In this document: piece by piece, positions 23,690 through 59,358 of the stretch
Position numbering within the stretch: position 1 is the stretch's first letter
Layout: each line of letters starts with the position of its first letter
Assembly (NCBI GenBank): GCA_039720395.1
Contig: CM077820.1
Location: 53,406,631 to 53,470,630, forward strand
Origin: Liquidambar formosana
Taxonomy: Eukaryota > Streptophyta > Magnoliopsida > Saxifragales > Altingiaceae
Reading direction: 5' to 3'
DNA: 64,000 bases
Translations under genes and position numbers: made by a program
The notes under the pieces: generated by a model
Told to the model about the DNA's origin: nothing
The model's input: the letters and a program-made list of their open reading frames with translations, nothing else
Database searches by the model: none

Positions 23690-23698
23690 GTATATATA
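23690..23698 (-). promoter_or_regulatory. TATA-like box of RLP2
   Basis: The minus strand reads CTATATATACAG about 50-60 bases upstream of the ATG at 23639. The position and context (CAACTTCTATATATA) are conserved with RLP1 and fragment A. Confidence 0.55.
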
Positions 23699-23699
23699 G

Positions 23700-29906: not shown

Positions 29907-30787
29907 TGGATAATGCTACTTTGCCATAAGGGTGTTAGTGGTTTAAGTTAAAACCGATACCAAATTGAGCCGAACCAAACCAAACCGCGGTTTGGTTTGG
30001 TTTTTTTGTCATTAGGTTTGGTTTTGGTTCTAATTTTAGAAAACCGAATTAAATTGGTTTGGTTTTGGTTTTCACATTTAAAAAACCAAACCAAACCAAA
30101 AAACCAAAAAAATTGAAAAATATAGAATATATATATAATTTTATATCTTATATATCAAACTTTAGTTGTAAATTTCCTATTCTAATAAGGGCAGAATAGG
30201 TAATAGATTCAAAATAATAGTATTGAATTTACTGGAGTACAAAACTACTGAATAGTGAGCACTGACTAAGTGACTAGTGATATTGGCATGTATTAGATTG
30301 GAGATTTGAACTTGGATTGACATATGTCAATTTGTTTCCATTTTGATACAATGTTTAATGTTTTTTTTAGTTGCTAATGTAATGCTTTTATTAAAAATGT
30401 TTTTATTTGAAGTTTGGCATGCCATTTTTTTCATTTTCAATTATTTGTTGCTACTTGATAGGTTAAAATCAAAATGAAGCCAAACCAAACCGAAATTTTT
30501 TGGTTTGGTTTTTTTATAGCATGGTTTGGTTTTGGTTTGGTAAGAACAAAACTGAAGTATAATGATTTGGTTTGAAATCTATCCTAAAACCGAACCAAAC
30601 CGAATCACTAACACCCTTACTTTGCCCCACACTTTGCTCTACACTATATTTTACTATGTGCATTTTGGAAGGTAAAGTTGTGGGATCCACTGATATGATT
30701 AAACCTTAAAAATTGAAACCCTTCTAATAACACATATATAGTAGGGCAAAGTGTAGAGTAAAGTGCAAGACAAGATAGCATTATCCA
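29907..30787. mobile_element. MITE interrupted by an hAT-like element
   Basis: The left end TGGATAATGCTACTTTGCC and the right end inverted (TGGATAATGCTATCTTG) pair, with TA at both outer edges. The interior restarts at 30620 with CTTTGCCCCACACTTTGC after the inserted element. The MITE proper is about 180 bases. The TA target suggests a Stowaway/Mariner-type element. Confidence 0.65.
29927..30619. mobile_element. Non-autonomous hAT-like element, copy A (693 bp)
   Basis: Termini TAAGGGTGTTAG and CTAACACCCTTA are inverted and flanked by CTTTGCCA and CTTTGCCC, an 8-base target duplication with one mismatch. The interior is built of AACCAAACC/GGTTTGGTT repeats and has no transposase. It is closely related to 58676-59358. 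Confidence 0.75.
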
Positions 30788-31289: not shown

Positions 31290-32150
31290 TCACCACCACG
31301 TCTTTATTTTCTTAATTAGCACTTGGAATAGATAACAAAAGCTAACCTTGGCAAACACAAGCGCAAAAAGCAAGACGAGGAAAGGGGTTATGGCAACCAC
31401 AACTAGGATTCTGATGGGGACGAAGGCACAATTAAGTACGTCGATCACAAAGCGCATGGGCATAGAGAAAAGCAGGACCTGGAAATCGTCAATGGCTTTC
31501 TCAAGTAGGTTGTTGAAAGTGTTAAGGGCTTTATCAAGTAAGTCGAGGAAAGACGTCTCCCTACCAAGTAGCGCAACATATGACCTTAGAAATAGCTCGT
31601 AGTAGAAGAAAAAGAATGAGCTACCAATGACACAGGTGGCAATGGCAAGCCCTGACGAATGTTGTAACACTGCGTACTGGCCCATCATGAACGCAACCAT
31701 CATTGCTCCCGCCGCAAATATATTGAGGTAGGCGGCTAGTTTGAAGTAAGAAGGGAAATTGGATTTGTCAGATGGAAGAGGCATAGCCAGGAAAATGTAA
31801 ATAAACACAGCAGAACTTGAGAGCATCATGGCTATGCTATTTGAAATAACAAATGCTCTGAAAGCTGCTCTGCTCGTTAAAACTGGAGTGCCCTTGTCGC
31901 TAATGTAACCACCGGGCATGGTGAAACTTGCGGCAAAGGCTACAGTTGCTATGAGTGCGGCCACTACTATATGGGTTTCTGTTGCTTTCTTGATTTCACT
32001 CAAGTTAGTACCTTTGTCTTCGTCATCCTTTCCTCCCTTACCAACATCTTCCTTTCCTGCCTTACCAAGACCTTCGTAGGTTACATTTCGCTGACATTTT
32101 CTGACACCGGCCTTCTGCAACTCTTTCCGCCACTCTTCCTCAATATGTCT
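31290..32150 (-). CDS. Ankyrin/PGG gene exon 4 (PGG and membrane helices)
   Basis: Acceptor TATTGCAG|AGACAT at 32151; begins in phase 0 with RHIEEEWRKELQKAGVRK, the linker before the PGG domain; stops after KIKTWW. A lysine/glycine/aspartate-rich insert (GKAGKEDVGKGGKDDEDKG) precedes the first helix. Confidence 0.92.
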   Translation of the reverse strand, partial: RHIEEEWRKELQKAGVRKCQRNVTYEGLGKAGKEDVGKGGKDDEDKGTNLSEIKKATETHIVVAALIATVAFAASFTMPGGYISDKGTPVLTSRAAFRAFVISNSIAMMLSSSAVFIYIFLAMPLPSDKSNFPSYFKLAAYLNIFAAGAMMVAFMMGQYAVLQHSSGLAIATCVIGSSFFFFYYELFLRSYVALLGRETSFLDLLDKALNTFNNLLEKAIDDFQVLLFSMPMRFVIDVLNCAFVPIRILVVVAITPFLVLLFALVFAKVSFCYLFQVLIKKIKTWW

Positions 32151-35100
32151 CTGCAATACATTGTCAAAATCGAATGTAATTAAGTTAGAAGACAAGTATC
32201 CTACAAATTTCCATCGAAACGTAATTCATCCCCAGAATGAATACCATTAATAGAAGGGAAATGCTTGCTTCATATTCTCATCCCCGAAGAATCCCGTGTA
32301 GACACATGGTTAGGGTCCATGTAGGTCATATGGATTCCTTAGGGAGTGGAGGATACAGAATGCGTGGCACCGCCATTATAGGAGAGCTCACGCATTAGCT
32401 TTTTCCATCGTATTGTACAAAACAGTAAGATACCGTATCCTAAGTGGTCACATATATTTTGTGATGAGATTATAAAAAATGTAACCACTTATTGGAAAAT
32501 ATGACTACATACCATTTGGGTATGATACCCTCAAAGTACCATAGAATTTCCTATAATGTCACCCTAACAAAGTGGTTGTTGTGTGGAAATATCTCTGAAC
32601 CGAGGTTACAGCTCGGGATAGAAGGTTCAGACCGGAAACGCTGACACGTGGTAAAGGCAATTCAACCAGGCCAACTACAACGCACGTGATTCATCTCCCA
32701 CGATCCAGCTCGGGCCAAGGAGTTAAACCACGATATTTGACACGTGGTTAATACTACACGGTAGGATCTGCTGCAAACCACGTGATCTCCCAGCTTGGGA
32801 CCTTACTCTCATCTCGGGACACCTGTCCTATGACTCACATTACAATCCAAATCCTACTACAGTCCAAAACTGTCACAGCAGTTGTAATTCCTGAGACAAC
32901 GGTTACTAGAAACCATGGTTCCATGACCAACCACGATTAACAAACCATGGTCAAACGGTTATGGGTAAATCATGGTCAGATCTGACCTAACCAAGGCAGT
33001 TACCTGACCTCACATGGTCAGTCCGTACAGGTGGGTATAAAAAGAATACGATACAGCCTAATTTGGTAAGCTACAGTACCCTAATTCTCTGAGATTCATC
33101 TTCTTCCTTGCCTCATTCTCCCCAATATAGTTTTCTGACTTAAGCTTTGGAGAGGGCACGGCCAAAACCCACTTTGGCCTATCCTCTGACCCATTTTCCA
33201 AGCTTGTGATTGCAGGTCCAAGCGAGAGAGTAAGCTCCATCATCAACACGTAATTCGGGGAGCAGTTTTTACCCCGTACAATTTAGCGCCGTCTGTGGGA
33301 ACCATCGCGATAAGATGGCTACACCACCTCCGCCCACCTATGGGCGAACAAGATCTGGAGCGAACTTTACTCGCGTAGACTAAGCAGTTGGAGGCGATGC
33401 GGGAAAGCGAGCAGAAACCCAGCCTTCGCAGGCAAACCCGCCATTACCTGCGGTGGGAACTAGTCAGCTTCCTTCGGTTCAGCAACATCAGATCCCCCGG
33501 AGATGTCCGCTGTTCTGCATTCTCTCGATGATCAGCCTGTTCTGAAAGCTGTATTTGATAGGGTCGTGACAAACAACCCAAACCCAGCAGCGGTGGTGGA
33601 ACTAATTGCAACTATGCAATCGGAGATTCAATCGGCGCAGCTTGCAAAGCTAACTGCAGAGCAGAACTACCACTGCTACCTCCAGCGAACTTTTGCCCCC
33701 TGCGGAGTCAATGTTGTCGCTGAGGAGGCTAGCCAAACCAGTCCACTCCGTCGCACTAGGCACCAGGAGAGCTCACCCAGGCCTGGAGTCTCGCACCACC
33801 ATCACCTCAGCAGATATGACGATGAGCCACGATTAACTGGCCCAGAACAGAGACACTCAGGAAGAGGAGATAGACAACATCATGCGTTGGTGCAGAGATC
33901 CCCTGAGCGCAGCTCAAGGCGTTCAGATCATTCACGAAGGTAGAACGAGGACCATCCTAGACCTCGTGCTCAAGTGGGTTCTGGGAACGAAACTCACAGG
34001 GACGAGAGACGACACCATAGGTCTTGATCTCCTGAAAGAAGAGGGGAGAGAAGTACTGGGGGGACGAGTAGGAAGCATTCTCGCTCACCTAGGCGTGAAA
34101 GAAATGAGGAAGAAGCCTCCAAGAGACACCGGGGTAATCAGAGTAGAGGGGGAGAGAGACCAGAGAGCACTGCTGTGGCTCGGAGCCCATTCATGAGGTG
34201 GATTCAACGGGTCCCAATCCCACGAGGGTATTCCGAGATAACCTTTACTCTTTACTCTCTTTCAATAGACCTTGATCATCATTTAAACTATTACTTGCAA
34301 TGAATGTCGTTATATACTGGAAATGAGGGTTTTCTCTGCAAGATATTTCTTATGAGTTTAGGGGAGGTGGCTCTCAAGTGGTGGGCCAAGATTCCAGATG
34401 AGTCTATTGACAGCTGGCACGAACTGAGCAAGCTGTTCAAGAAGAGGTTCATCACTAGCTGTAAATTCCTGAGGACCATGCAGAACCTATACGAGTTGAA
34501 ACAGAAAGATGGGGAAGGACTTCGGGAATATTCTCAAAGGTTCTGGGAGGTTTATAACAAGATCGACGACCCGATTGAGAAGAATGCCATGGATCTCTTT
34601 CGTCTCGGGTTGAGGAAGCCATCACCTCTATTTAAGGAGCTCACTGTTAATCCCCCCAGAAATCTAGCCAAATTACTCTCTACTGTAGCCAACTATTCGA
34701 AGTTGGATGATTTCTACACCCCGCAGTCTACCAAAGCCAATGAAAAAGATGACAAGAAGAAAGACTCAAGGCCTCATAGGGATAGTCCCCGAGGAGAGAA
34801 ATCAAGGCCGCCTACCAATCCAAATCAGGCCATCTTCACTGTATTTACTCTCCCCATCTACAAGTTGATGAAGGCACTGGAGAACAAGGATTTCTTCCAG
34901 AAACCTAGACCCATGCTCGCGGAGCCCGAGAAGAGAAACAAAAAGCTGTTTTGCAGTTACCACAAGGATCATGGCCATAAGACAGAAGACTGCAAGGTTC
35001 TAAAGTACAACCTCGAGGCCTAGGCCAAGGAAGGAAAGCTGAATGAGTTTATAACCCGAAGTGATAAAGGACAGCCATCCGAACAGAAAAAGCCCGAAAA

Positions 35101-38100
35101 CAGGGCTCCTCAATCCACACAACCAAAGATCATTGGGAGGATTGACATGATCACGGGGGGATATGAGGAAACTGCTCTGTCAACCAGCCAACTCAGGGCA
35201 CAATACAGGATGGCTTGTCAAGATGCCGAGGTCAGTGATATCGGGAACGAGCTAGTACTACTACCTCAAAGTGAGGGAGAAATTGGAGAAAAACTGCCGT
35301 TCTTTGGGGATGCGGAGACTGACGGGACAGTGCCCTGCCCCCACAATGATGCTCTGGTCGTTCGCATGCTCATAGGGAACTACGATGTGGGCAAAGTCTA
35401 TGTGGACAACAGGGCATCTGTGAATGTCATGTTCTAGAAGTTGTTCAGTCAACTCGGGTTGAAGGACTCCGACCTAAAGCCCTGTCACGTCAGCCTAAAG
35501 GCTTTCAATGGAAACATGACTTTCCTGCTGGGGCAGATAATTCTCCCAGTTCGGGCGGAGCCAGTACAATCCATGGAAACATTTGTGGTAATCTAGGAAA
35601 GGTCAGTTTACAACGTAATACTCGGGCGACCCTGGATTCATGCCATAAAGGTTGTCCCATCCTCCTACCACCAATCCATCAGGTTCCCGAGCCCAGAGGG
35701 AATCATGGAGATAAAGGGAAACTAGGCAGCAGCCAGGGAGTGTTTTCTGGCGGAGTATGTAGGCCACTCAGCACCCTAGGAGGACAAACTGAAATCTAGG
35801 ATCCCACGCCTTCCTAGTTCGGGAACTGGTAAAGCTAAAACCCCGAGGCAAGAGCCAGAGCAAAAGAAAAAAGCCAAAGTCGATGAGGTTCCCTTGTAGC
35901 AACGAAAGGGAGAGCGGCCCGGAATTGAAGAAACAGTTCTGGAACCTACAGACAGAGCAGGGGAAGAGCTAGTGAAAAAGATAATTAATCCCGATGATCC
36001 AGAGAGGTTTTTCTGGATTGGAAAGTCACTGAGTGAGATTGACGCAGCAGAGCTGTTTGAGTTTTTGAAAGATAACATTGACGTATTTGTTTGGTCGCCC
36101 CATGAAATGCTAGGAATTGATCCCAGAATTATCACTCACGAGTTGCAGGTTAATCCAAATTGCAAGCCAGTGGTTCAGAAGCAACGAAGGTTGTCTGACG
36201 ATCGGGCTGAAACAATTTCCGCCGAGGTAGATAAGCTCTTGAAAGCAGGGTTCATCAGAGAAGTAATGTACCCGAGTTGGCTAGCCAATCCCGTATGTGT
36301 AAGAAAAAAGACAGGGGACTGGCGTGTCTGCATTGACTTCACAGACCTCAATAAAGCATGCCCGAAAGACAGCTTTCCCTTACCTAAGATTGACCAACTC
36401 ATAGACTCTATCTCGGGATATGAGAGACTAAGTATCTTTGATGCTTTCTTGGGTTATCATCAAATTCCCATGGCAGAACATGATCAAGATAAAACAGGGT
36501 TTATTACTCCTAGAGGGACCTACTGCCAAGGACTTTAATATCGATATCGATGGATATATTGAAGGTCCAAAAATGTGGATATATCGGATATATCGTTGGA
36601 TATATCGACAATATCGATATCGTTTTAAAGATATGGTAGATATTCTGAGTTAAACATGGATATTTTGATTAAAATTCTGAGAAACAATAATTTAGACTCT
36701 AATAATCAATTTATTCTCAAAAGATTGTAATTTAAATGTGTATAGTATAAATATGTGTTGTGTAGGGTATAAAAAAATGTGCCGCGCTTAGTAAATAAAA
36801 AGTTTTCACACAAATTTAACATTTAAATGTCACATAAATACATATCATTTTCATAATAATAAATCAATAATGTCATGAATTAGACAGGAAAAAAAAAAAA
36901 AAAAAGAAAGAAAGAAAGAAAGAAAACATTTTTGCCTATTGGCTAGTATCACATGGAGTTTGTCACACCCCATTTTTGCACCACCTTACTAGGGCTCATC
37001 ATTTCATGCATGTTTTTGTTTTGTTTTTGAGTCTAGTCTCTTGCATTAGTTTTCTAAAGTCACAAGGACAATGGATATGAATTTTGGTTCAAATTGGAGT
37101 TGATCTTGAGGGATAATAAGAGCTTTTGTGACTTGAGGGGCATAATCGTCTTTTAAGTCCCAAACTTTTCATTTGACCTTGGAATGATCTCCAAATTATC
37201 AATTGGAGTTCATATGGATGCATAAGAGATATTTCTAGTGTCAATTTGATAAATCAATGGCTCGGGATTAAAATGGCTCAATACAGTACAAGATGGTTAA
37301 TTGACCCTTCTTTGGGTTAGCTCTAATTGACTCACAATTACCAATCAAATCTTTTCAAATTGACTTTAATTAGTCATCATTTTATCCCCAAAAGTGTTTT
37401 ATGAAGTTCAATTTTGATATGGAAAGTGTTTGGTTTGACCCTATGTGCATGCCTATGCTTAGCAAAGGTAGAGCATAGCGGTTAACCACCTTGTTCAAAC
37501 CTAACCATGCCCCCATGGTTAGTGGTTTTCACCCTAAAATGTTCAAAAACATATTCCTCATCGAAACACAGTCGTTTTGGCTTTTGTTTCATCAAAATCG
37601 GAGTTAATTTGCCCCCTGAAACACTTCTAGAAGGGAAGAGAGACAAAACAGGCAAAAAATTAGAAGTGGGCTCGGGTGACCACCCAAGCCCAGGCGGCTA
37701 GCCGCCCAAGCCCAGGTGGTCACCCAAGGCCACTTTCCTATTTGCTTTGTGTTTCCTTGCTGAAGCGGATTCCTCCCTATTTTGACGAACAAGGACTCTT
37801 TTGGACGAGTTTCCTTCTAATTTTTGGTAACTTCTGAGTTACTTAAGCCCCAAGGGGGTCTCTAATAGCCCTTGGATTAATTTTTAGGGTTTTAATCCCA
37901 GCCATTGGTTAATCCTAATTGAAGTCTATAAATACCCCCCTATGCTTCAGCACAAGGGGAGCCACTTTATGCATTAATACTTGAGTGTTTGAGAGAGAAT
38001 AAGAGAGAGAGACTTGAAGGAGAGCTGGAGTTCTTGTTGTAGCCTTGGAGAGGATTGGTTCAAGTCATCCATAAGAGCAAGGGAGAGTCTCTACAGCAGC

Positions 38101-41100
38101 AAGGAAGTTTCTTCTTAAGGTATTCCTCCCTCTTTGTTTATGCTGAATATGGGTTAGGCTTATTGCATGTTAAAGGTAGCTTTTTTATCATGTATTAACA
38201 CTCTAGCTAGTTAATATACATGGAATATCTATTGTTTATCTACTGTTTAGCATGCTTTAGGGCTGTCCTATATGTTTCTAGGCATAGTCATGATTCTTGT
38301 GTTTCTTTTGTCCTTGTGCTAGGATAGTGATATTGCATGCTAGAGTTAGGGTTTCTTATCATGTTTTATTGCTTTAGTTAGTTAATATGCATGATTTAGG
38401 TTCTGCTTAGGTTTATTTTAGCATGATTGAGGTTTGTTTTGTATGTTTTTAAGCATATTTGTGAGTTTAGGGCTGTTAGTGTCCTTACTTTATGTTGGTT
38501 TTCATACAGCATGTTAGTTTAGGCTCTTTATTGTTTTTTCTTCATAGTTGCTGTATGTGTTTTGCATATGGAGTAAATATGATATTTTTGCATGCATATT
38601 AGTTCATTCTAGGGTTTTTATGCATGATATGGTTTTAGGATTGTGTTAGGGCTTATGAAAGTTTGCTGTTTTTGCTGTTGGCATGTCTAGTGAATGATTT
38701 TAGGCCATAATACTATTCTGTCCAGATTTGCATGTTAGTGTTTTTGCATGGTTTTGAGCACTTGTAAGGGTGCAAATAGGTGTGGTATTTGTTCTATGGC
38801 AAATAGGGCTGCCAATGTCTGAAATGGCTAATGCTTGGAGCTAATTGCGCTCAGGTAAGTGGGTGTGAAGGTGCCCCAATTCACCTTTCTTCTTAACTCT
38901 TTCTCTTCTCCCTCCTAGGGTTAGTTTTTAATACAAGCCTATGGTTTAATCAAGGGTTTCCTTCACACATAAAATTCTGGTTTTTATTGAAGTTTCCATT
39001 TTGTGGAGTTCTTTCTAAAATCAAACTTTCTATCAATTCTCTTTTGATCAAATAAGGAAACCTAGGGTTTTAACCATAGGATTATATTAAGTCTTAACCC
39101 TACTTCTATTCGAACTACGTGGACTTTGATCCATGTATTTCGTTGCATGGTACGTAGGCGCTCTTCGTGAGGCTCAAGTCCGTTCTAGGATCCAAGTATC
39201 CTAGGTTTTCTTTTTGTTTTGTTTTGTTTTGTTTTTCTTTATTTTCTGTTTTTATGTGTTTATTATGCATGGATGGATGAATGAAATATATGATATGCAT
39301 GCAATCCTTGTGATGATATACTTGCTGATTTTTGTATGAAAAGATCTTGATTTAGCCCAAATGAACTGAGAGACCGAAAGGGTGACATGGGTGCCTATAG
39401 GCTTTGCCTAGAACCTTCCCATGTCATAACTTAGCCTCCGAATCCCTGATTTCTTCCCATGTCATAACTTAGCCTCCGAATCCCTGATTTCTTTGGTTTC
39501 CAAAAGATTGGTTTTTGCCTTTCCTTTTTTATGGAGTCATTCAAATTGTTTTCCTAAAACAAACTATTTTTAGGGTTTTCCTTGTTTCCTTTAAAAAATA
39601 AGGTGGCGACTCCTTTTTCTTTTTCAAACCTACCTATTTTCTTTTCAATCCTTGTGGGCCCAATTTCCGGGGTTCACAGAGTTCTTGGTTGGATAGTTCA
39701 AATCTATCATCTTTATCTATGTATTATATAAGGATGATGGCCAGGTAGGGACATGTTGATACAAGTTATATCAAAATCGACATTGGGTGTTTTTGTGTGT
39801 TAGTTGGTTACAAGGTAAAACATTATATGGTTGTTTTTGCAAAGAAATATTAAAAGTGAGTCTTTTGTTAGAAAAAACAAGGTTATTATATTCTATTAAA
39901 AAATGTTATAATAATATAAAGTGAAAGTTAAAGCATATGCTGCTTTACCAAAAAAAAAAAGAAAAAGAAAAACAAACAAAAAGGGAGGCATTTGAGCCTC
40001 ACGACTCAAGAGGGCTTGAGAGTCAGACCAGCAAAAGAGGAGGCTTAGGCTTCTTTCGTACTGCCATGGAAGCTCGACAATAAGGATGACGGCAAAGATG
40101 ACAATGGTGACGACGAGAACAGTGAGGCTGGCAGCAACACCACGTACCAGGTTTGAAAGTGTTTTCTTCTTCTTCTCCTTCTTCTTTCATAGCGACAAGG
40201 ATATCGGTGAGGGACTGACGGCATGAACAATCTCCTTTTCTTCTTCTTCTTCTTCTGTTGCTGCTGAAAGATTTCTCAAAATTTGCACCGACAGAAGAGG
40301 ATATATCGACGATATCGTCGATATATCTCCCACATATCGCCTGATATCGTCGATATATCTCCCATATATCGCCGAAATCTTCTATTTTTCAGAGATAAAT
40401 CACGATTTATCAAATATCTTTCGATATCGACGATATATCGCGATATATCGTCGATATGTTGCATTTTCTGAATTTTTCAAATACCGCAAGGAGATATCGT
40501 ATCGTTACCCTCCGATATAGCGATATATCGCGATATATCGTCGATATATTGCGATTTTTAAGTCCTTGCCTACTGCTACAAGGTAATACCATTCGGATTG
40601 AAGAATGCTGGGGCAACCTATCAACGTCTTGTTAGCAGGATGTTTGAAGGATTAACCGGCAAAAACCTAGAGGCATACGTTGATGACACTATTGTTAAGA
40701 GTAGTGCAGAGAAAAACCATTTGACAGACCTAACCGAGGCTTTCGCCCGACTCAGGGAGTACGGGATGAAGTTAAACGCAAAGAAAAGCTCATTTGGAAT
40801 AGGCTCGGGAAAGTTCCTGGGTCACTTAGTCTCTAGAAGGGGGATCGAGGCAAATCCAAGTAAGATTAAGGCAATAAGAACCCTACGTACACCAACAACA
40901 GTCAGGGATGTTCAACAGTTGAATGGGATGGTGGTGTGAGCGCCACGCCAGGTACCACATAGCTCGAGAATACGCATTAGCCTCAAAGGACTAACACGGA
41001 GAGGAGTCGCCACCCAATAATGGGAACGAGTGAACCCTAGCAGGGTCTAGCTCGTCATAACCAGAGATTCGGGTTCGGAGCTAGGGTACGCAGCTGGGAA

Positions 41101-47100: not shown

Positions 47101-50100
47101 ACCCTCTCGGCTTCAATGGTGGCATTAGGCTGGGACATGACCTCGGGATCATTCTCCCCGACCTCGTCCTCACCTGCAACCTCCACTTCAGCCTCCCTGA
47201 CATCACCTCCCTCGGGGTCGTAATCCGGGGGAACTTCCCTCCTTTCGAAGGGAATATCAGCAATGCCAGGGAATTGGGCAGAGGCTAACTCGACCAAGGT
47301 CTCCCACGCGAATTTGTAGGTGGCCTCGAGCTCATTGGTCAACTGCCCAACAAGGGAATCCTTCACGCTCTTCCTCTCGTCAGCCACCGCCTTCTCCACA
47401 GAGGCCTTCTCCTTCTCTACCTCAGCCTCGAGGGCCCGGACCTTTCTCGTCAGTTCGCGCTTCTCCCGGGCTAATTCGTCATGGGCGTCCTTCATCTTCC
47501 TCAGCTCAGCCTCCAAATCCGCGTAGTCCTTCCTCGTGAGTTCTAATTTGCTGACGGCACTCTCGGCAGTGGATTTGAAAGTCTCGCACTCAAACTTCAC
47601 TTTCTGAAGCTGAGACATAGCCGCAGAGCAGTTTGCCTCAACCTCTTCCAATTTCTTGTCATACTCACTCCGGACTTTAACGACCTCGATTTGCAGTTTA
47701 TTATCCTCTGCCTAGAGGAGGTCGCCCACCAGCAGGATTTGTTGGCAGCCCTATACAAACATTAACAAGTCAGAGATCGTGTTGAATAGTAAGTAACAGA
47801 AACCACAAAGGAACAAAGCTTACTCGGTAAAGACTTGTAAACCCGAAGCGAAGAAGGTCGGGGGCGGACTTCCTCCCGAAGTGCTCCATGTCCGCAGGGA
47901 GTCTCATAGGGTTCCCCAGCTGTTTGAAGTTGTACTCCGCAAAGAAGGAGCTGGTGACAACCTTGTCTGTGGGTACGGGGAACTGCACGCACATGTTAAG
48001 ACATGAAGTCAGCCAGAATCCATGATGGATTTTCGAGTATGGGGCAAATATGAAACTGAAAAAAGCAAAGGTATACCTCGGGAAACTTTGCTATTATCTC
48101 ACTGCGAGAAGGAGCGCTCCCACTTCCGGCCGCCGGGGCATTGGATCCCCCTTGCCGAGGCCCTTGCACGGCGGGCTGCTGCTCGGGGCCCGTAGAGGGT
48201 CTCCTATGTTTCGGAGGAGCAACCATGGGAGCCTTCCCCTTCCCAGTAACCTCGGGCACCTGGGGCCTGCCCATGTCCTGCCCCCTCATTGCGCTGGACA
48301 TGAGTTTGCCACTGTTGGGGTCAGTGGACTTTTTGCCAGCGTCTTGGCCTGCACCTCGAGCAGCAACAGCAACAGCAACAGCCTGGCTGGTCTTCTGTTG
48401 CTGCTAATTCTGCCTCTATTGCTGCTGCTGCTGATTCTGCTGCTGTTGCTTCTGCACAGCAACCTTCTTTTCCTGGGCCTCCTTCTCTGCCGCCCTTCTC
48501 TCAGCAACCAGAGCCCTCAAATTCATCCCAGAGTCCTTCTTGGCCCTCTGGCTGCCGGAGTCTGTTCTTTGTCTCTTGGCGGGGGGGGGGGGGATTGGAG
48601 CCTCTCCTCTCCATGGCTTGGGGGACAGTCTCCTCTAAGCTGGAGCTCTCAATAACGAAGGGGGCGCGGCGACCCGTCTTGTCCAGGGCTCTGATTTCCT
48701 CAGCACCCTCCCTTTCAGGTCGGAGCCGGATCCCCTCTTCTTCCTCTCCCTCTTGCTCTCCTCTCTCCACCTCTTCCTCCGCCACGCGGGTCAGCTCGTC
48801 GTCAGGCTGCTCCCAGTAAGGGTAACTTGCCTTCCCGTAAATGTGGTACCTCGCGTGGTAGTTGAGCAAGGTATCGGCCGAACGGCAGCACTGGCTGACT
48901 TGATATCCCAGTAACGTCTGGATGTCTTTCTTCTTCAGCTTGTCAGCAGGCTCGTTGGCGTGAGGAGCTGCTAGAAGGAAACATGACATAAGTGTCAGTA
49001 TGAAATCTGATATCCATCTCGGGGCCATATAAAAACACCAAAAAGAAAAATGATCTCGCTGAGTGCTTACAGCTAGAGCCTTTCTCTCGAGGGATGATGG
49101 GAGCGTCTGGGGGTAGAGTCTCATCCACAGGCCCGTATACGAAGATAACCAGGTCGTGAGCTCCAGGGTTGGAATCTGGGATGTGTGTGACAAAGGGTTT
49201 CATCCTGGGCTTGAGAGAGAGATAAATGTCGGGTTTGTTTTTTAGGGCGCAGATTTTGTAGTGATGGAGTATTTCTCGCACTCCAACTGAAGTCCCTAAT
49301 ATTTGGTTAAGGAGATGAACCCCCAGGACGATCCTAAAGGAATTCAGCCCTAACTGAGTCGGGACTATGCCGCAGTAGAGGAGGAAGTCATTGAGGAGGT
49401 CAGGAAATGGGACACGAACTCCACCCTCCATGAACGCAGCAATAGGGACAGGGAGGCCATCCTGGGCATCTGACCTATAGATGTCCTCCCCGGGCTCAGC
49501 AAAGCGGAAGCTAAACTTCCGATCTTCAAAGCCGTACAAGGCTCTAAACTCTGCTATCCTTGCAGAGTTCTCCCTAATGTCATAAAAGGAAGACATCTGC
49601 CAAGTTGAAAGGGGAAGGTTAAATCCAAGAATAACTCAACCTATGCCCACATGCCCTGACCTGAAATTTCAGAGTCAAGTCCTGACAGGTATGTTATTCC
49701 TGCCTTGACAGACCCTAAAATTTTTCTAAGTGTCAGCTCGGGGAATACTAAACTCGGTGTTGGGAAAAGACAAAAGAAGAGACCAATGGTCTCTTTCTCA
49801 AATTTACCCTGAGATGGAGTTTTCAAACCCTAAAAGGCGGGAAAATTGATATCTTGGCGATTTGCTCCAAAAACCAAAGGGAAACCCTAGAATCGCGGAA
49901 CAAACCCCAAGAATGATACCAACAACCCCAAGCGAAGAAAATAGAACCGTACAAACTGAAGAATAAGATCAAAGAAGAAGATATACCTTTGCAAGGATCA
50001 AACGGTGGTCAGAAAAACAGTTTCGTCATAAAAACTATACGGCGCGGTGCCGAAAACCTCCAAAAATTGCTTTTGGAAAAGTGGAGGGAACAGGAACAGT

Positions 50101-51629
50101 CTTCCAACGAAGAACAGCACCGGTGGAATGATTCACAAGGCAGTGAACAAGAACAGAACGGATCTCCTCCTGCAAACGAACGGCGTAAACAGTGGATTCC
50201 GGTGGAAAATACGGTATTTTCTTAGTGAAAGCAGAAGGCAAAAAGTAGAGAAAGTAGAGAGAGAAGGCAAAGAACAGAAAGTAGAGAGAGAATGCAAAGG
50301 ACAAAGTGAACAGTGATTAGCCTCCATCCAAAGACATAATGCTTCTGGAGCATTAAATGCTATAAACAGCGGATGGGACCGTCCCAAAGAACATGACGTC
50401 AGCACCTTGGAATACGGAAGGGCATAACCGCCCTCTGCCAGCTAAGCCCTAGAATACCAAACGACATAGGGGCACAGGGAAAAACACTTAGCAAAATAAA
50501 ATTATGACAAGTCCCAATTCGGGAATGTCATAATTTGGGGCAAATTGTGTGGACATATCTCTGAACCGAGGTTACAGCTCGGGATAGAAGGCTCAGACCG
50601 GAAACGCTGACACGTAGCAAAGGCAATTCAACCAGGCCAACTACAACACACGTGATTCATCTCCCACGATCCAGCTCGGGCCAAGGAGTTAAACCACGAT
50701 ATTTGACACGTGGTTAATACCATACGGTAGGATCTGCTGCAAACCACGTGATCTCTCAGCTCGGGACCTTACTCTCATCTTGGGACACCTCTCCTATGAC
50801 TCACACTACAATCCAAATCCTACTACAGTCCAAAACTGTCACAGCAGCTGTAATTCCTGACACAACAGTTACTAGAAACCATGGTTCCATGACCAACGAC
50901 GATCAATAAACCATGGTCAGACGGTTATGGGTAAACCATGGTCAGATCTGACCTAACCAAGGCAGTTACCTGACCTCACATGGTCAGTTCGTACAGGTTG
51001 GTATAAAAAGAATACGATACAGCCTAATTTGGTAAGCTACAGTACCCTAATTCTCTGAGATTCATCTTCTTCCTTGCCTCATTCTCCCTAATATAGTTTT
51101 CTGACTTAAGCTTTGGAGAGGGCACGGCCAAAACCCACCTTGGCCTACCCTCTGACCCATTTTCCAAGCTTGTGATTGCAGGTCCAAGCGAGAGAGCAAG
51201 CTCCATCATCAACACATAGTTCGGGGAGCAGTTTTTACCCCGTACAATTGTTATATCATGTTATATCACCACATCATGTTAGGACAATAATTAGAGGTGT
51301 AGCCAGAAAATTAAACTTGAACAATTAAAATATTAACTCACTTACAAGGTTTTGCCTAGGATTGTAACTCGGTTTGGGCCAGGGGAAATCTAGACCGGAC
51401 CAAACTAATTCAGTCCTTCAAAATCTAAACTAAACCCAAATCGGAAATAGCATTGGACTGGACTGGAAAAAACGGTCTGATTCTCGGTCTGGTTCTCGAT
51501 TTTTTTTTTTTTGTTTTGTTTGTAAAAGGTAAAAAATTTATTGAATAAGTACTATTATGCAATGAATAAGTATTATTATTCATTGAATAATACTTATATA
51601 TGGAGTATAATATAATTAGTATTAACATC

Positions 51630-51662
<33 letters not shown>

Positions 51663-54600
51663 ATGATCAGGTAAGCACGTGCTGATATAACTTATATCAA
51701 AACCTGCATTGGGAGTTGTACCTTGTGCATTAGTGAGATGTGAGGTGCATTGAATCAATGCAAGGGGTACAACCTCCAATGCATAGTGCTGATGTAACTT
51801 ACATCAGCACGTGCTGATGGGATCACCTCTGTATATATATATATATATATTGCAATTCGGTCCCGTTCTAAAACCCCCTAAACCATGGACCGAACTAAAT
51901 TGATAAAATCAGGACTATATATATTAGGGAGAGTGAGATTGTCAGAATTTTTTGGTCCCACAATCCCACTTTGTTTTGCTCGCATTAGCGTATGACACCA
52001 CGTGACCATGTCACAATTACATGGAAGACTCACTCGTATTATAAGATGCCACGTTAGTTATTATATCATTCTGACACTATCACATCAAACAATTGACAAA
52101 AGATTTAGTAAAAATGACATTAAAACTAGTATTTTGTTGTAGAAAATAGCCTATTTTCATAAATATATGAATTCATTTTTTTTAATAAATAATTTTGTTA
52201 AATAACATTTGATTGTAAAGTCCATGCAAAAGAAAGTCATACCTTCCATTTTAGTGTGGACGTAGGATTAGCACTTATGATGTCAAAAGCGTTCAAGTTT
52301 TTCTTGTCAAAGACCATCTTATCGACTCTAGGGTGCTTTATGAGGTCGGAAACCAATGAGTAGACTCTAGTGTCTGGCCCATGGTGATTGGCAAGCAGAT
52401 GGAGAGGTGTGTTCCCCTCGTTATCCTTCTCATTTAAAAGGTAAGTAAGAGAATACCTTTCAAAGACAACTTTAACGGCGTTTAGATTCCCGCTCTCTGC
52501 AGCAATGTGAATAAAATTCCGACCATTTCTGTCAACGAGTTCATAACAACCCGGACAGTAATCTATAAGTGTATTCACTACCTTCTCATGTCCGTTGCTA
52601 GCCGCAATGTGAAGAGCTGTCCTACCATCCCCATCTCCGATGTAAGCTGCAGATTTATCATATTGTAGTAACGGAGATACGCTCCAAGAATAACCCAAGA
52701 GTGCAGCATAGTGGAGCGGAAGCCAGCCTTGTTCGTCTGCTTCATGGGTTAGATAGGCTCCTGTCTTTGCCAAAATGCTTGTTATAATTCCTAAAATAAA
52801 GTAGAGAAATTAGTTATTTAAATCTGTGTACAAGCACATATGAAACATCTTAAGATGGTGAAAAATCTCTACTATGATTTAACCAATAGGTTGATCGAGC
52901 ACTAATGTCTACCCAACCTAAAAATTAAGTCAAATCAAATCAAAACACTCACAATAATCAATAATCAACTGATAAAAGAAAATGAGAACTACACAGATTT
53001 TAAATGGAAAAACCTTTAAACTTGGATAATACTATAGACGACTCATATGTACTATGAAGGAAACTTAATTACAAGACTCAATAGCTAGAAGACATACATA
53101 CAGACTTAAGACTACCATGTGAGCTGATGTTATCCACGATCTCCTCGTGTAAACCATCGCTACATATATCCCTCAGTGAAAGCTTGCAAATCCCATGTGC
53201 GTGGCTTTTGAAACTCCGTCGTACACTATTTCCAGCAAGAAGATGAACATAATATATGTAGAATTAAAAATTAAGTTGAGCATTAGTGTTTACCCATGAA
53301 GGGGGGGTTAATAGCTAGGTTGAACGAAATGTTTTACCCAATTTAAAAATTAAGTCAAATTAAATACAAACACTCACAAAAATGAACGTATGAAAGTGAC
53401 AAGAACAACATAAAGATTTTACATGCATGAGAACCTCAAAACTTAGGTGAAAAACCACATTCTAGATGCATTGTATATGAAGAACTTATAAGACTCGTTA
53501 GAAGACATACATACAAACTCAATACTACCCTGTCACTCAATGAGAATAGAACATTATAATTAAGAAAAGAAATGTAAGTTCTCAATATATACACGAAATT
53601 TTCTATATATATATATATATCTATACTACCTATAAAAAGATGAATATGAGAAAAACTTTTGATTGACTAATATATCCTTATTTTAATTTTTAAATACACA
53701 ACTACCCTTCTACATATATAGGAAATATAACAATATAAAACACATACCTTAATAAGAATTCTAAGAAAATTATAATTCGTATAATAATTAAATAAAACCA
53801 AACCCAAATAGGAATTCTAAGGAAACGGAAACTATAATTTGTAAAACCCTAACAATGTTAACATATAAATACAAATAGAAACACGTTATAAAAATCATAA
53901 AATCCTAACACAACTACTGCTTCCTTTTTCTCCGTCTTCTATGTGCCTTCATTAAGTCTCATTTCTTCTGGTGCTTTGTCTAGTATGTAGTTTTCAATAA
54001 ACTTGACTCATATATACAAATTATGTTTAAACATTTAAATCTCTACTTGCATAAACATTTAAATCTCTGCCTGCATTGCATGATTGGACTTTTAAATCTC
54101 TATTTGAATTGCAAAATTAATAAGAAAAAGAAGATAATCAAAGACAAATCAGTTGAATGAAAATAAAAAGGCGCATGCTTGAACAAAAATAAATGAAAAC
54201 CCAAATTAAGAGGCCAAAATAAAAAATAAAAACTTGAATTGCATAAGTAAAGTTTTGAATAGCACATATAATCTTTGATTATTTTCTAAGGATTTGCATA
54301 TCAGAAAAAACTTGAATTGCATTATTGAACTTTTAAATTGCCTCTGTTGCATAATTTTCATATTTTGTTGAGAATTCATATATAATCTCTGATTTTTTAA
54401 AATAATCAAATCAAATTACCAAGAAAAAGAAGAAAATCAAAGACGATTCAATTGAAGGAAAATTAAAAAAGAAGCAGGTTTGAACAAAAACAAAACAAAA
54501 CCCCCAAAAAAAAAAAAAAAAAAACCATTAACAAATGCACAAGAAAAAAAGAAAATAAAAAGGGAAGGTCTAATGAACTACTAAAAAAAGTCCCTATCAA

Positions 54601-55335
54601 ATCGTGAGGTTCATGAAACTTAATTTGCAATATCTACCTGTAAACCCAAAATACCAAACAAAACAAAACAAAACCAAAAAGAACAAAAAGAAAAGAAAAT
54701 AAGTTAGATCACAACCCCCCAAAAAAGATAAGGGTATTTTTGAAAATATGAAACTTAATCAATGACAAGTCAATATAATGATTACATTTTCTTAAACTCC
54801 GTATTTTGTCAAATGTAGCCTATCTTTACGGGACGGAGGGAGTATTATTTTTTAATGAAAAGTCAATGATCCTTGAGTTTATTAATCTGTCGCTTTAAGG
54901 TTTGCAGAAGTCTTTGGTTTCAGACCCTACGTAAGCTATGTGTGTTCTCCTATCGTTTCCCAAATAAAAAAATCATCAAAAACTAATTTACTCATAAATA
55001 AAAGGAGAACATCCTAATCCCATAAATACCAGATTTTTAAAAGGAAAAAAAAATCCTAAACATGTACATATTAGGAATATTATTATTTTAATCAAAGACC
55101 AACAGAAGTTCTGGATTTGCATAAGTATTGGTTTCGATCCCACGTGGAGTATCTATTTTTTCCAATGTTTTTCCAATACATATATATCAAAGACTACTTT
55201 ACTCATAAATAAAATAAGAACCTTCCAATCCCATAAATACTAGATTTTTTAAAGGTAGTAGTGTAGGTCTTATTAGGAACTTGAGTTAGTTTCTATGGCA
55301 TGAATCTACGGGATGGGTGTAGATTGTAGTACATC

Positions 55336-55389
<54 letters not shown>

Positions 55390-57548
55390 GGCATGTCCGT
55401 AGGGTTTGCAAAGCCACGCAAGTCTTGGTTTTGATTTTTGTAAGACTAATGTACTAATAATTTGCTATTAAATCTTTCAACTATGGCGTAAATATGTTTT
55501 GATTAGAGAAAGAGACAGAGTGAAAGAGAAAGCCTTTTGTTTCAGCATTGAAAGTTTCACAAAACCTTCAAAGAACCTATGTATAATGAAGTTTCAAAGA
55601 TAATTTTAAGCACTATGATTTGGGAAAAATAATGAAAAAAAAAATAGTAATCATATCAAAAGAAGTAAAGGATTGAGTGATCAAAGTGCTTTCATCTTAT
55701 GCAAAGGCATGATAAAATTATTCAATTTTAAAAATTATTATCATTATTGAAAAAAATAATTTAACTCAAAAAAATTCACGTACAACGCACGTGCGTACCA
55801 ACTAGTATATCTTAAACAAGGGAAAAATAAAATAAGGTACATTCTTAATACATGCACGATCTCTAGCTAATAAAAAATATATATATATTGAGTCACAAAA
55901 AATCATGACATGCAATACGACATTGTAATTAGGAAAATGATAAAGCCAACTATTTTATCCACCGGATGTGTCTATTGGCCGATATCACAATTGCATGGGT
56001 CAGGGTCATGGGTGTAATTAATTGAAAAAACCAAATCACTTTTTACTTTAAAAATATGAACGCCTCATATAAATCCTATGGATATAGGACCACTCTTATC
56101 GCCACTACCTGCATTGTCGTTAATTACGGCGGCATGCAAAGCAGTTCTACCACCAGGGCCACCATGAGCTGGTGATGTCAGATTTTCCAATATTTCAATC
56201 ACCAACGTACAAAAGCTTCTCTCCGCAGCCAGGTACAGTGGAGTCTCACCAGCCAAATTAGCCGAATGCGGGAAGTTAGGGTCTTCTTTAGTTAATAATT
56301 TCACTACCTCAAGGTGATTGAACCGTACCGCCTCGTGCAAGGCCGTGTCTTTGTCTTTATTGGTCATCCTTAGGATCACTTCCCCTTTCTCGGGATCTTC
56401 TTTTGCATGGTTAAGGAGGATTTCCACCATATTAGAAAACCCATACCTTGAAGGGTGAACCATAAAATTAGTCTTAGTGGATCAAGTCATTAACTCACTT
56501 AAAAAAAATGATTTTTGGTCTTATAATTCAAAGGATAAAGTGTAATTTATTCTTAAAAAAATTTGGGACTAAAAGTCACTCCATCCCAATTTGTTTGCCC
56601 ACATTATTCATTTTAAGGATGTCCCAAAATATTTGTCTATTTTTAAAAAATTATTATTTTCCTCTTCTGAAATACTCTTTATTATGTTTTCCATTAAAAA
56701 ATTAATATTTTTATCATTCTATTATGAAGGATAAAATTAAAAAGTTAAATAAATTAATTGACATGGCATTACTTTAAATATGTTACCTAAATATTTGTGC
56801 TTGGCTAAATTAGTGCAAACAAATGGCAATAGAGGAAGAAGAAAACAAAAGGGCTTTTGATTTTTTAAACTTTTGTGGGATGGCCAAATTAGAAAGAGGG
56901 TTAAATTTTTGGGAGTAAAAAAAATTTTGGGATGTTTAAATTTGAAATTATTCAAATAATTAGAAAATTAAAGGGATTTTGATTTTTGACTTTTGGGGGA
57001 GGGTCAAATTTAGAAAATGCCTAAATTTTTGGGAGCAAATTACAATTTTGGGAGGATCAAATTTGTAATTATAAAAAACAATGTACTAAAAAAATAAAAA
57101 TTAAAAAAGAATAATGAGACAATCGATTGACCCCTCTCTCCATACACCTCTCTCCACCTCCCTCCGCCCATGCGTACCTTGCTGCCAAGTGTAGAGGAAT
57201 TTCGCCATTTGCATTATCCTCCCATAAGAGTGACGGACGCATCCTAAGGATGTCTTCCACGAAGCTTGTGGACTCCTTTTCTATACATTCCTTGGCCTTT
57301 AGGCTAAAATTAGGTGTGGACTCCGTTTCTTCACATTGGGCCGTTTTTTTTTTAATTGGATCTTCACTTTGGGCGTTGATGTGGATATGGAGAAGTGTGT
57401 TCTTATTTGGGGTTCGAAGTAGAAGAAGATCTGCATCGGCCTTGAAGGCCTCAATGTCACCCTTTGCTGCGGCCTCATACCCATAAGGATCCATGCATGG
57501 AAGATGCTCTAGTTGCATCATACTCGTTGAAGTAGAACCCTCTTGCAT
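31290..57548 (-). CDS. Ankyrin-repeat/PGG-domain membrane protein (ACD6/ITN1 type), 4 exons
   Basis: The minus-strand gene joins 57548-57178, 56446-56109, 52790-52243 and 32150-31290 into 2118 bases (705 residues) with no stop. Every intron has GT-AG borders and matching phase. Residues 1-124 hold the start MQEGSTSTS and the first ankyrin units. Exons 2 and 3 carry several more units (TALHEAVRFNH, TPLYLAAERS, LPLHYAALLGYS, TALHIAASNGHEKVV, NFIHIAAESGN, TPLHLLANH). Exon 4 carries the PGG domain (ETHIVVAALIATVAFAASFTMPGG, PGG at about residue 498) and four hydrophobic helices, then a C-terminal extension with a fifth hydrophobic stretch near residues 675-700. Family members act at membranes in salicylic-acid-linked defence or stress signalling; the role here is inferred. 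Intron 3 is 20,092 bases because of an 18.7-kb retrotransposon. Confidence 0.9.
32151..32579. other. Intron 3, 3' part beyond the retrotransposon
   Basis: AT-rich intron DNA with no recognised element. It contains GTACCATAGAATTTCC, also seen near 5745 and 7813. Confidence 0.4.
32580..33280 (+). repeat. 5' LTR of the Tat-type element
   Basis: 701 bases. Differs from the 3' LTR at about 28 positions by hand alignment (about 4%), mostly transitions. Four CACGTG motifs at 32645, 32683, 32741 and 32779; TATAAAAA at 33036-33043. Confidence 0.93.
33036..33043 (+). promoter_or_regulatory. TATA box of the 5' LTR
   Basis: TATAAAAA within GGGTATAAAAAGAATACG; the same box is at 51002-51009 in the 3' LTR. 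Confidence 0.65.
33281..33303 (+). promoter_or_regulatory. Primer-binding region of the Tat-type element
   Basis: ATTTAGCGCCGTCTGTGGGA follows the LTR. Compared with the left element, TTTGGCGCC has changed to TTTAGCGCC, a G-to-A change in the site. Confidence 0.6.
33315..35140 (+). pseudogene. Tat-type gag, degenerate
   Basis: Starts ATGGCTACACCACC and shares the GRTRSGA motif with the left element before an early stop at about 33380. The frame resumes at 33503, is shifted around 33943-34300, and is open again from about 34304 with the gag core (FLCKIFLMSLGEVALKWW, FITSCKFLRTMQNLYELKQ). A zinc-knuckle-like FCSYHKDHGHKTEDC lies at about 34950-34995. A TAG at 35021 replaces a tryptophan codon present in the left element. 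Confidence 0.85.
35147..36526 (+). pseudogene. Tat-type protease and N-terminal reverse transcriptase, degenerate
   Basis: The protease active-site motif reads VDNRASVN, where the left element has VDNGASVN. A TAG follows at about 35437, with further stops at about 35596, 35722, 35778 and 35897. From 35972 the reverse transcriptase is open: RRLSDDRAETISAEVDKLL, then WLANPVCVRKKTGDWRVC, DFTDLNKACPKDSFPLPKID and HDQDKTGFITPRGTYC. It is then cut at 36526 by the hAT-like insertion and resumes at 40577. Confidence 0.88.
36536..36650. repeat. Subterminal ATATCG palindrome array, left end
   Basis: Repeated ATATCGATATCGATGG, TATATCGGATATATCG and ATATCGACAATATCG units next to the left terminus of the hAT-like element. 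They are candidate transposase-binding repeats. Confidence 0.7.
36961..39678 (+). mobile_element. Solo LTR of 2.7 kb inside the hAT-like element
   Basis: Starts TGTCACACCCCATTTTTGCACC, ends GGGGTTCACA, and is flanked by GAGTT on both sides (36956-36960 and 39679-39683). It carries GGTGGCGACTCC near its 3' end, shared with the two other solo LTRs. No internal retrotransposon sequence or second LTR is seen. The small open frames inside have no recognised domain. An exact 39-base duplication occurs near 39410-39490 (CCTTCCCATGTCATAACTTA). Confidence 0.8.
39733..39805. repeat. Diverged half copy of the 175-bp MITE
   Basis: GGATGATGGCCAGGTAGGGACATG, GTTATATCAAAA and GCATTGGG-like sequence match one end of the MITE at 51657, with a diverged remainder. 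Confidence 0.5.
40300..40560. repeat. Subterminal ATATCG palindrome array, right end
   Basis: Dense CGATATATCG, ATATCGTCGATATATC and ATATCGCGATATATCG units adjoining the right terminus of the hAT-like element. Mirrors 36536-36650, but longer. Confidence 0.75.
40577..40934 (+). pseudogene. Tat-type reverse transcriptase, C-terminal part
   Basis: Resumes after the hAT-like element: VIPFGLKNAGATYQRLV, the catalytic YVDD (EAYVDDTIVKS at about 40670), then KKSSFGIGSGKFLGHLVSRR and IKAIRTLRTPTTVRDVQQLNG. It is cut at 40934 by a solo LTR. Confidence 0.88.
40935..42493 (-). mobile_element. Solo LTR of 1.56 kb, minus orientation
   Basis: On the minus strand it starts TGTAGACACCCCATTTTGCACC and ends GTGGCGCTCACA. 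It is flanked by GGTGG on both sides (40930-40934 and 42494-42498). It carries GGAGTCGCCACC (the shared motif, inverted) and GTGTTAGGCACCC near the LTR 3' end. Ten TGCGTACGCA-type palindromes lie in three clusters near 41338-41400, 41568-41640 and 42299-42350. Confidence 0.85.
42499..43525 (+). pseudogene. Tat-type RNase H plus second (aRNH-type) RNase H
   Basis: First domain: LSKFISRSSDKCHPFF, YLAVSAHSLSGILLA, a TAG at about 42727, then YYISKTLLDAETRYLPLEKL and the connection VSKWGVELNAYDIHFKPRPAIKG. The second domain starts at about 43130: KVDGASNVKGAGLGIVL, NNEAEYEAVVAGLGMA, VYSDSRLVVNQLN and RNRHVDGLA-like RDQNRHVDGLAAMAAAL. The duplicated RNase H is characteristic of the Tat lineage. Confidence 0.88.
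43574..44970 (+). mobile_element. Solo LTR of 1.4 kb, plus orientation
   Basis: Starts TGTTAACACCCCATTTTGTACC, ends GACACGGCGCTCACA, and is flanked by AAGAG on both sides (43569-43573 and 44971-44975). It carries GGTGGCGACTCC and GGTACCTAACACCTTCCCGT near its end. Six ATGCACGTACGTGCAT-type palindromes lie in two clusters (43719-43770 and 44466-44525). Confidence 0.87.
44976..46225 (+). pseudogene. Tat-type integrase, degenerate
   Basis: Zinc-binding HHCC region (EFHEGSCGGHTGGRSLAHR then CPKCQMFA), followed by the DDE core: WGLDLVGSLPTASG, TFVSDNGTQFDSK and YPQCNGQAEATNK. The C-terminal part runs to VNSGTRNPTDGKLGATWEGPYEV. Stops at about 45261 (Q or similar to TAG), 45543 (WENI-type W to TGA) and 45797 (R to TGA), plus a shift near 45540-45840, disable it. 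Confidence 0.88.
46340..46640. repeat. ~51-bp tandem repeats between integrase and antisense ORF
   Basis: About five diverged units of TTGCCCAAGAATGGGTC(C/T)AAGC, AAAAACTGCCTAAGAATGGGC and ACAAGTC. Both halves of the unit carry (A)AGAA(T/C)GGG. Confidence 0.8.
46917..49596 (-). pseudogene. Antisense extra ORF of the Tat-type element, 4 exons
   Basis: The minus strand has a plausible spliced gene: 49596-49071, 48970-48077, 47982-47824 and 47750-46917, all with GT-AG borders. The first junction is in phase: S|APHANEPADK. The N-terminal part (VPFPDLLNDFLLYCGIVPTQL, NSFRIVLGVHLL) resembles the putative gypsy-type transposon domain (Transposase_28 type). The middle is acidic, then glutamine-rich (QQQQQNQ). 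The end is a long coiled coil (LEAELRKMKDAHDELAREK). A G run at 48584-48595 shifts the frame in exon 2, and a TAG at about 47714 interrupts exon 4. Antisense extra ORFs between pol and 3' LTR are known for plant Tat elements; their role is unknown. Confidence 0.72.
50546..51246 (+). repeat. 3' LTR of the Tat-type element
   Basis: 701 bases, same termini as the 5' LTR. Of the four CACGTG motifs, the first is changed to CACGTA and three remain. Confidence 0.93.
51247..52242. other. Intron 3, 5' part beyond the retrotransposon
   Basis: Contains the 175-bp MITE in a TA array, an AACCGGACC-like stretch at 51350-51510 and AT-rich DNA. No coding sequence. Confidence 0.5.
51657..51831. mobile_element. 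175-bp MITE inserted in a TA array, copy 2
   Basis: Reverse complement of 18185-18359, with few differences by eye. Flanked by (TA)n on both sides. Carries the palindrome CAGCACGTGCTG near one end. Confidence 0.75.
52243..52790 (-). CDS. Ankyrin/PGG gene exon 3
   Basis: Acceptor TTTTAG|GAATTA, donor TGGAAG|GTATGA. Encodes about five ankyrin units from IITSILAKTGAYL to PTSTLKWK. Starts in phase 1 and ends in phase 0. Confidence 0.92.
52791..56108. other. Intron 2 of the ankyrin/PGG gene
   Basis: AT-rich, with an A47 tract at 55339-55385. Two similar blocks occur at about 52900-53160 and 53310-53560 (AAATTAAGTCAAAT, CACTCACAA, GACATACATACA). No coding sequence. Confidence 0.55.
56109..56446 (-). 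CDS. Ankyrin/PGG gene exon 2
   Basis: Acceptor TTCAAG|GTATGG, donor AATGCAG|GTAGTG. Encodes RYGFSNMVEILLNHAK, TALHEAVRFNHLEVVKLL, TPLYLAAERS and RTALHAAVINDNA. Phase 2 in, phase 1 out. Confidence 0.92.
56447..57177. other. Intron 1 of the ankyrin/PGG gene
   Basis: AT-rich intron DNA; no element recognised. Confidence 0.55.
57178..57548 (-). CDS. Ankyrin/PGG gene exon 1
   Basis: ATG at 57548 (MQEGSTSTSMMQLEHL), then the first ankyrin unit (PYGYEAAAKGDIEAFKADA, NTLLHIHI) and GEIPLHLAA before the donor GCAAG|GTACGC. Confidence 0.9.
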
Positions 57549-58675: not shown

Positions 58676-59358
58676 TAGGGGTGTTAATGGTTTTGGTTAA
58701 AACCGAGAACCAAACCGAACCAAACCGAACCGGGCGGTTTGGTTTGGTTTTTTTGTCATTAGGTTCGGTTATGGTTTTAATTTTAGAAAACCGAACTTAA
58801 TTGGTTTGGTTTTGGTTTTCAGTTTTAAAAAACCGAACCAAACCGAAAAACCGAAAAAACCGAAAAATATAATATATATATATATATATAAACTTAAAGT
58901 TTGTAAATTCCCAATTCTAATAAGGGTAAAATAGGTAATGGAGTTGTTTTTGTTGATTTTAAGTTTCTTATTGTTTTCCCTTTTTTAGATTGGCATGTAT
59001 TAAACTAGCTATTAATATTGTGTGTATTAATGTTGTGTGTGATATTAACATATTAATATATGTCAATATGTTTCTATTTTAATACAATGTTTTTTTTAGT
59101 TGCTAATGTAATGCTTTTATTAAAAATGTTTTTATTTGGAGTTTGGCACATCATTTTTTTCATATTTAATTATTTGTTGTTACTTGATAGGTTAAAATCG
59201 AAACCGAACCGAACCAAACCGAAATATAATGGTTTGGTTTGGTTTGGTTTTTTTATGATATGGTTTGGTTTTGGTTTGGGAGGAACAAAACTGAAGTATA
59301 ATGGTTTGGTTTGAAATTTCCCCTAAAACCGAACCAAACCGAACCATTAACACCCCTA
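58676..59358. mobile_element. Non-autonomous hAT-like element, copy B (683 bp)
   Basis: Perfect inverted termini TAGGGGTGTTAATGG and CCATTAACACCCCTA; flanks ATAGCTAG on both sides (58668-58675 and 59359-59366), a perfect 8-base target duplication. The interior is AACCGAACC repeats, with AT-rich DNA similar to copy A. No transposase. Confidence 0.85.

Follow-up and report, generated by a model that had tools for sequence, protein, structure and literature searches.

An ankyrin/PGG gene of Liquidambar formosana with an open frame predicted across a 20-kb intron filled by a nested Tat-like retrotransposon

ACD6-like ankyrin/PGG proteins form a plant family linked to immunity. The gene described here resembles those of the ACD6/ITN1-like plant membrane proteins in encoding ankyrin repeats, a PGG domain and hydrophobic segments at the C-terminus and in having many genome copies, and is unlike its three closest siblings in having an intron 3 about ten times longer. 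Plant introns filled with transposable elements, and the split gene models that go with them, are already well documented, and the locus fits this known pattern. Genes with heterochromatic, element-filled introns are reported to require IBM2 and EDM2 in Arabidopsis (PMC4417168). More than 10% of rice genes are reported to contain intronic heterochromatin, and such genes show a relaxed KA/KS (0.473 versus 0.384) and faster intron change (PMC7145194). The 2,697 EST-supported grapevine introns of 3-100 kb are described as rich in transposable elements, with enrichment of recent LTR elements (PMC3058033). Some introns made by transposable elements and longer than 5 kb are reported as spliced in Arabidopsis, including a 10.2-kb copia-element intron validated by RT-PCR (PMC5575664).

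Our locus lies in a window, by which we mean the whole stretch of 64,000 nucleotides that was analysed (C1:53406631-53470630). As in the IBM2/EDM2-type genes, an element sits inside the intron of an open gene; unlike in the reported rice genes of that type, the dN/dS of our gene is close to 1, as is that of siblings lacking the element. The large introns described in grapevine and Arabidopsis are supported by transcripts, whereas intron 3 in the window is predicted from sequence, and its control by IBM2/EDM2-type factors and a share of the gene in the immunity or cell-death role of the ACD6-like family are putative. A search of one open-access library of papers found no report of ankyrin genes with intronic elements. 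We regard the locus as one more candidate of this kind; its size stands out, as does the presence, on one contig with it, of sister introns that lack the element. What is new is a dN/dS of about 1 and yet an unbroken frame, while the frame is broken in three of the four siblings in which it was read. The copy with the 20-kb intron and its sister copies with an empty intron of about 1.95 kb, all on one contig, form a natural experiment, and the array permits transcription, splicing and methylation to be compared directly between a copy that has the element and copies that lack it.

The four exons (Table 1) lie on the minus strand and join into an open reading frame of 2118 nt, encoding 705 residues plus a stop. 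The initial annotation had proposed this in-frame join, with GT-AG borders and a joined frame free of stops, and our reconstruction reproduced both: each of the three introns has GT-AG borders, and the 705 codons contain no stop. The joined protein has a Pfam Ank_2 match (156 bits, E 3e-46, six stretches), indicating ankyrin repeats, and a PGG domain (PF13962) at residues 471-580 (95.2 bits against a cut-off of 24.1, E 2.9e-27). Membrane segments are predicted in the C-terminal part encoded by exon 4, with hydropathy peaks at about residues 475-499, 518-545, 557-581 and 644-699. A PGG search of the 717,955,123-base L. formosana genome gave at least 150 matches (150 of 150 scored, of 336 candidates), and by its predicted protein the 705-residue gene is a member of a large ankyrin/PGG family. 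A chance chain of exons is ruled out by the homologous exons in siblings. A four-residue loss in the PGG domain was considered as a sign of breakage and set aside, 19 of the 146 homologues with the motif (277 loaded) being equally short.

Table 1. Features of the ankyrin/PGG gene and of the elements inserted in it (window positions).
Feature	Position	Strand	Details
Exon 1	57178..57548	-	371 nt, ATG at 57548; homologous exon in L009, L011, L041
Intron 1	56447..57177	-	731 bp, GT-AG; aligns full length with L009, L011, L041
Exon 2	56109..56446	-	338 nt
Intron 2	52791..56108	-	3318 bp, GT-AG
Helitron-like insert in intron 2	53620..55806	+	about 2.2 kb; begins TC and ends CTAGT; not present in L009, L011, L041
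Exon 3	52243..52790	-	548 nt; ends ...KWK, phase 0
Intron 3	32151..52242	-	20,092 bp, GT-AG
MITE-like insert in intron 3	51628..51851		absent at that place from L009, L011, L041
Ty3/gypsy Tat-like LTR retrotransposon	32581..51247	+	18,667 bp including nested inserts; LTRs, TTGTT duplication, domains
5' LTR as compared	32580..33281	+	702 bp
gag remnant (PF03732)	34304..35023	+	Pfam
Reverse transcriptase, N-terminal part, interrupted by insert	35900..36538	+	Pfam
DNA-transposon-like insert	36527..40568		8-bp duplication CCTACTGC, inverted ends CAAGGACTT
Solo-LTR-like insert within DNA-transposon-like insert	36961..39678		5-bp duplication GAGTT
Reverse transcriptase, C-terminal part	40565..40936	+	Pfam
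Solo-LTR-like insert	40935..42493		5-bp duplication GGTGG
Two RNase H domains (RT_RNaseH, then RVT_3)	42441..43525	+	Pfam; stop and frame change within
Solo-LTR-like insert	43574..44970		5-bp duplication AAGAG
Integrase region	45267..46220	+	H2C2 and weak rve matches, interrupted by stops
Antisense open frames of element	46917..49635	-	open reading frame list, Pfam
3' LTR as compared	50546..51247	+	702 bp; 28 differences from 5' LTR
Exon 4	31290..32150	-	861 nt including stop; PGG domain and C-terminal hydrophobic tail

The retrotransposon in intron 3 lies antisense to the ankyrin gene, with the 5-bp target duplication TTGTT on both sides. LTRs, target duplications and domains confirm the 18.7-kb element with four later insertions that had been read there at the outset and support its Tat type, and each of these four nested inserts is flanked by a target duplication of its own. 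The two LTRs, for which base 32580 may be either target or first LTR base, differ at 28 of 702 bp, by 23 transitions and 5 transversions (K2P 0.0413). With assumed substitution rates between 1.3e-8 and 1.3e-9 per site and year, the insertion would be 1.6 to 16 million years old. Pfam domains follow the Ty3/gypsy order of gag, reverse transcriptase, RNase H and integrase, the integrase matches being weak, and no protease match was found by Pfam in the two element stretches searched. RT_RNaseH (42732-43103) and RVT_3 (in 42998-43525) both precede the integrase; we take a second RNase H (RVT_3) between reverse transcriptase and integrase to be a mark of Tat elements, and on this double domain a Tat-type assignment is supported for the predicted element. 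Its own gag-pol carries stops and frame changes. An extra antisense frame ahead of the 3' LTR is presumably also a Tat feature; three of the antisense frames seen here were searched and matched no known element protein, one giving weak coiled-coil matches below the cut-off. The DNA-transposon-like insert is, we assume, hAT-like. Depletion of poly(A) signals on the gene strand was considered and rejected, as AATAAA occurs in the element 12 times on the gene strand and 13 times on the other.

By exon 4, the closest siblings are L011 (C1:53552824), L041 (C1:52239135) and L009 (C1:53356988), followed by L017 (C1:52209195), all on the same contig as the window. The first three have the same exons as the window gene, with an intron 3 of 1942 bp (L011), 1955 bp (L041) and 1964 bp (L009). 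Taken together, the sequences on either side of the element in the window align to one continuous stretch in each of the three and overlap by exactly 5 bp, the target; judged from this alignment, L009, L011 and L041 carry the empty site of the Tat-like insertion, as expected. For L017 the alignment reaches one side of the insertion site only. Because the flanks abut with the 5-bp target in three siblings, the insertion is real and clean, and the link between exon 3 and exon 4 is no misjoin. Where genes of an array are this similar and long repeats are present, an assembler could in principle join exons 1-3 of one sibling to the exon 4 of another across a repeat, but the same 5-bp duplication stands on both sides of the element, and the matching empty site in the three closest siblings rules out misassembly to the extent that we regard such an artefact as exceedingly improbable.

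Against L009, dS is 0.086 and dN 0.097, and dN/dS over all ten pairs of the five genes ranges from 0.92 to 1.35. The path to the window copy holds 56 amino-acid-changing and 19 silent changes, corresponding to a dN/dS of 1.0-1.05 (CI 0.61-1.87), or 0.80 with L017 added, and the values for the broken siblings are similar. This comparison shows no detectable purifying selection on the predicted protein, and a dN/dS near 1 rules out a strongly conserved gene. The idea put forward in the initial annotation, that the gene may tolerate its load, holds in so far as the frame is intact, but with dN/dS near 1 such tolerance may reflect weak constraint. Four siblings, L009, L011, L041 and L017, were read in frame; the first stays open throughout the 730 codons read, and net frame breaks interrupt the other three.

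In 2533 noncoding sites, two blocks with only two siblings being left aside, there are 12 window-specific indels not divisible by three. This corresponds to 10.0 frame breaks expected in the coding length, a rate overstated for exons because the intron indels lie partly in A/T runs, versus none observed; 2.2 stops were expected and none was observed. The time since insertion makes up 30-61% of the path to the window copy. Had constraint ended at insertion, the probability of an intact frame would be 0.0006-0.03 by intron indel rates, 0.05-0.23 when calibrated on the two broken siblings (three net breaks counted by eye, one in L011 and two in L041) and 0.09-0.31 with L009 added, a second version made because the broken siblings alone overstate the break rate. 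For the whole path, the sibling calibrations give a probability of 0.007-0.02 of no break. Over that whole path it is likely, from the aligned copies, that the frame was kept amid fast change; for the time after insertion alone the figures span 0.0006-0.31, and because this chance depends on the calibration, the intact frame does not decide whether the gene still works.

The reading that we favour, with a probability of about 0.56, is that an element-filled intron is tolerated, with a mature mRNA still producible, in a gene under weak constraint. An ACD6-like member of a fast-changing L. formosana array took a Tat-like retrotransposon into intron 3 in antisense orientation, and four further elements then nested within it; the splice sites survive, as do 1420 bp of the remaining intron 3 sequence. 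Mature mRNA would still be possible if RNA polymerase traverses about 20 kb and the distant splice sites pair; the element would be silenced, and it would persist because it lies outside the coding frame of a gene under weak or diversifying, not strong purifying, selection. This reading draws on the GT-AG borders, the ankyrin and PGG domains, the exon order of the siblings, the empty site, the open frame and the junction KWK|RHI found in a predicted protein, P0006. A less probable but serious alternative is that from the insertion onward the gene was silent or served no purpose, and that its open frame is a remnant which has so far escaped breakage in an array of often-dying copies, as a dN/dS near 1, the breakage of three of four siblings, an LTR divergence of only 0.041 and the 0.05-0.31 chance of an intact frame under sibling-exon calibration would allow; L009, open and with a short intron, could carry the function. 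Against such a history stand the absence of breaks over the whole path, by the intron rates as well as by the sibling calibrations, and the intactness of every splice border. Beyond the tolerance that we favour, intron 3 might act as a switch. The second codon beyond exon 3 is a stop, so that transcription ending in intron 3 would yield a 420-residue ankyrin protein without the PGG and membrane part; read-through would yield the membrane-bound ankyrin/PGG protein, and silencing of the element would set the ratio. COPIA-R7 in Arabidopsis RPP7 is a parallel for a transcript ratio set by silencing, and for the gene studied here we consider a switch of this kind quite unlikely.

The initial annotation had named a separate promoter for exon 4 as an alternative. 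It is conceivable, although improbable, that the gene has come apart into two transcription units, exons 1-3 and an exon 4 with a promoter of its own, perhaps derived from the element. The public protein P0121 (L1049_020030, 203 aa) presents exon 4 on its own, matching it at 162 of 163 residues, and is the only near-identical public protein listed. Its start, however, falls within the PGG domain, at exon 4 residue 108, with the first 107 residues missing, and in six siblings (L009, L011, L013, L015, L017 and L041) the homologues of exons 3 and 4 are within about 2.1 kb of each other, as in one gene. The P0121 model splices from a donor internal to exon 4, with 31347 as the last base, to an exon at about 27770-27898; L009 stays in frame beyond the place matching this donor. 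Protein searches, which covered proteins between 0.55 and 1.75 times as long as the query, gave no near-identical model for the full gene among the 120 listed of 3701 matches (7974 candidates) and none for exons 2 and 3 among the 120 listed of 986 matches (2870 candidates), where P0006 was best at 79%. The closest full-length public protein among the matches listed is P0001, at 64% identity (BLASTP). From these models, the public L. formosana annotation appears to split the ankyrin/PGG gene, as annotation is reported to split grapevine genes at large introns (PMC3058033). Such splits can hide genes in trees rich in transposable elements.

The junction KWK|RHI had been offered as support for the spliced form. 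P0006 does contain it, but P0001 has 17 extra residues at this place, its model thus using an acceptor farther upstream, and the window frame is also open upstream of exon 4 to 32225. From the open frame and these models, the acceptor at 32150 is likely but not certain, and an acceptor farther upstream is possible. With respect to L017, the public model P0001 apparently leaves out a stretch and in this way passes over a frame break, near residue 275 in the numbering of the window protein.

Heterochromatic marks had likewise been anticipated for an intron of this kind, and the substitutions around the element give a qualified hint of such marks in the past. We counted as window-specific the changes against three agreeing siblings, after removing alignment columns with a gap or sibling disagreement; some of these changes belong to the common stem of the siblings, as the window copy lies outside them. 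Changes of the C-to-T/G-to-A type make up 26 of 42 in the intron-3 flanks versus 21 of 83 across the remaining noncoding blocks (p 9e-5), or 26/332 versus 21/798 per C/G site (p 2e-4), and their share is 23/93 in exons and 19/63 in the intron 3 of the siblings. The LTR differences also lean to transitions (23/28). This excess would fit methylation reaching some hundred bases beyond the element. The pattern is weaker when polarised with L017, to which the alignment is poor: 9 of 15 intron-3 changes versus 14 of 44 in exons 2-4 are then of the C-to-T type (p 0.07). This polarisation assigns 9 intron-3 changes of that type to the window copy and 8 to the sibling stem, with 8 undecided, on an alignment that is poor in mid-intron. 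L009, which lacks the element, is partly alike, with 14/323 in intron 3 versus 6/778 elsewhere per C/G site, but its C-to-T share of all changes is not raised (14/44 in intron 3 versus 6/33 elsewhere). In L041 this share reaches 13/27 in the other noncoding blocks. Decay centred on CG was discarded as proof of methylation, the changed sites being mostly CHH, not CG, and the counts by context small.

Several smaller observations concern the array and its surroundings. Private changes in intron 1 are very few in L009 (2 of 643 sites, L009 3622-4359) and L041 (3 of 644, L041 13831-14576), which suggests gene conversion within the array, of a kind that would blur the branches. A direct repeat flanks the ankyrin gene at 29987-30619 and 58734-59358, its two copies 90-91% alike in three blocks, and may mark the unit of duplication. 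Two copies of an LRR-protein gene lie about 11 kb apart elsewhere in the window (9483-12602 and 20516-23738), with repeat blocks 88-91% alike; both are perhaps broken, each being split over overlapping frames.

Two further inserts distinguish the ankyrin gene from its closest siblings (Table 1). We call the one in intron 2 Helitron-like from end motifs that we take to be typical of this group. The MITE-like insert in intron 3 has a relative, 70-75% alike, elsewhere in the intron 3 of L009, L011 and L041. Within the window, the MITE-like copies at 51628-51851 and 18165-18388 are 97% complementary to each other.
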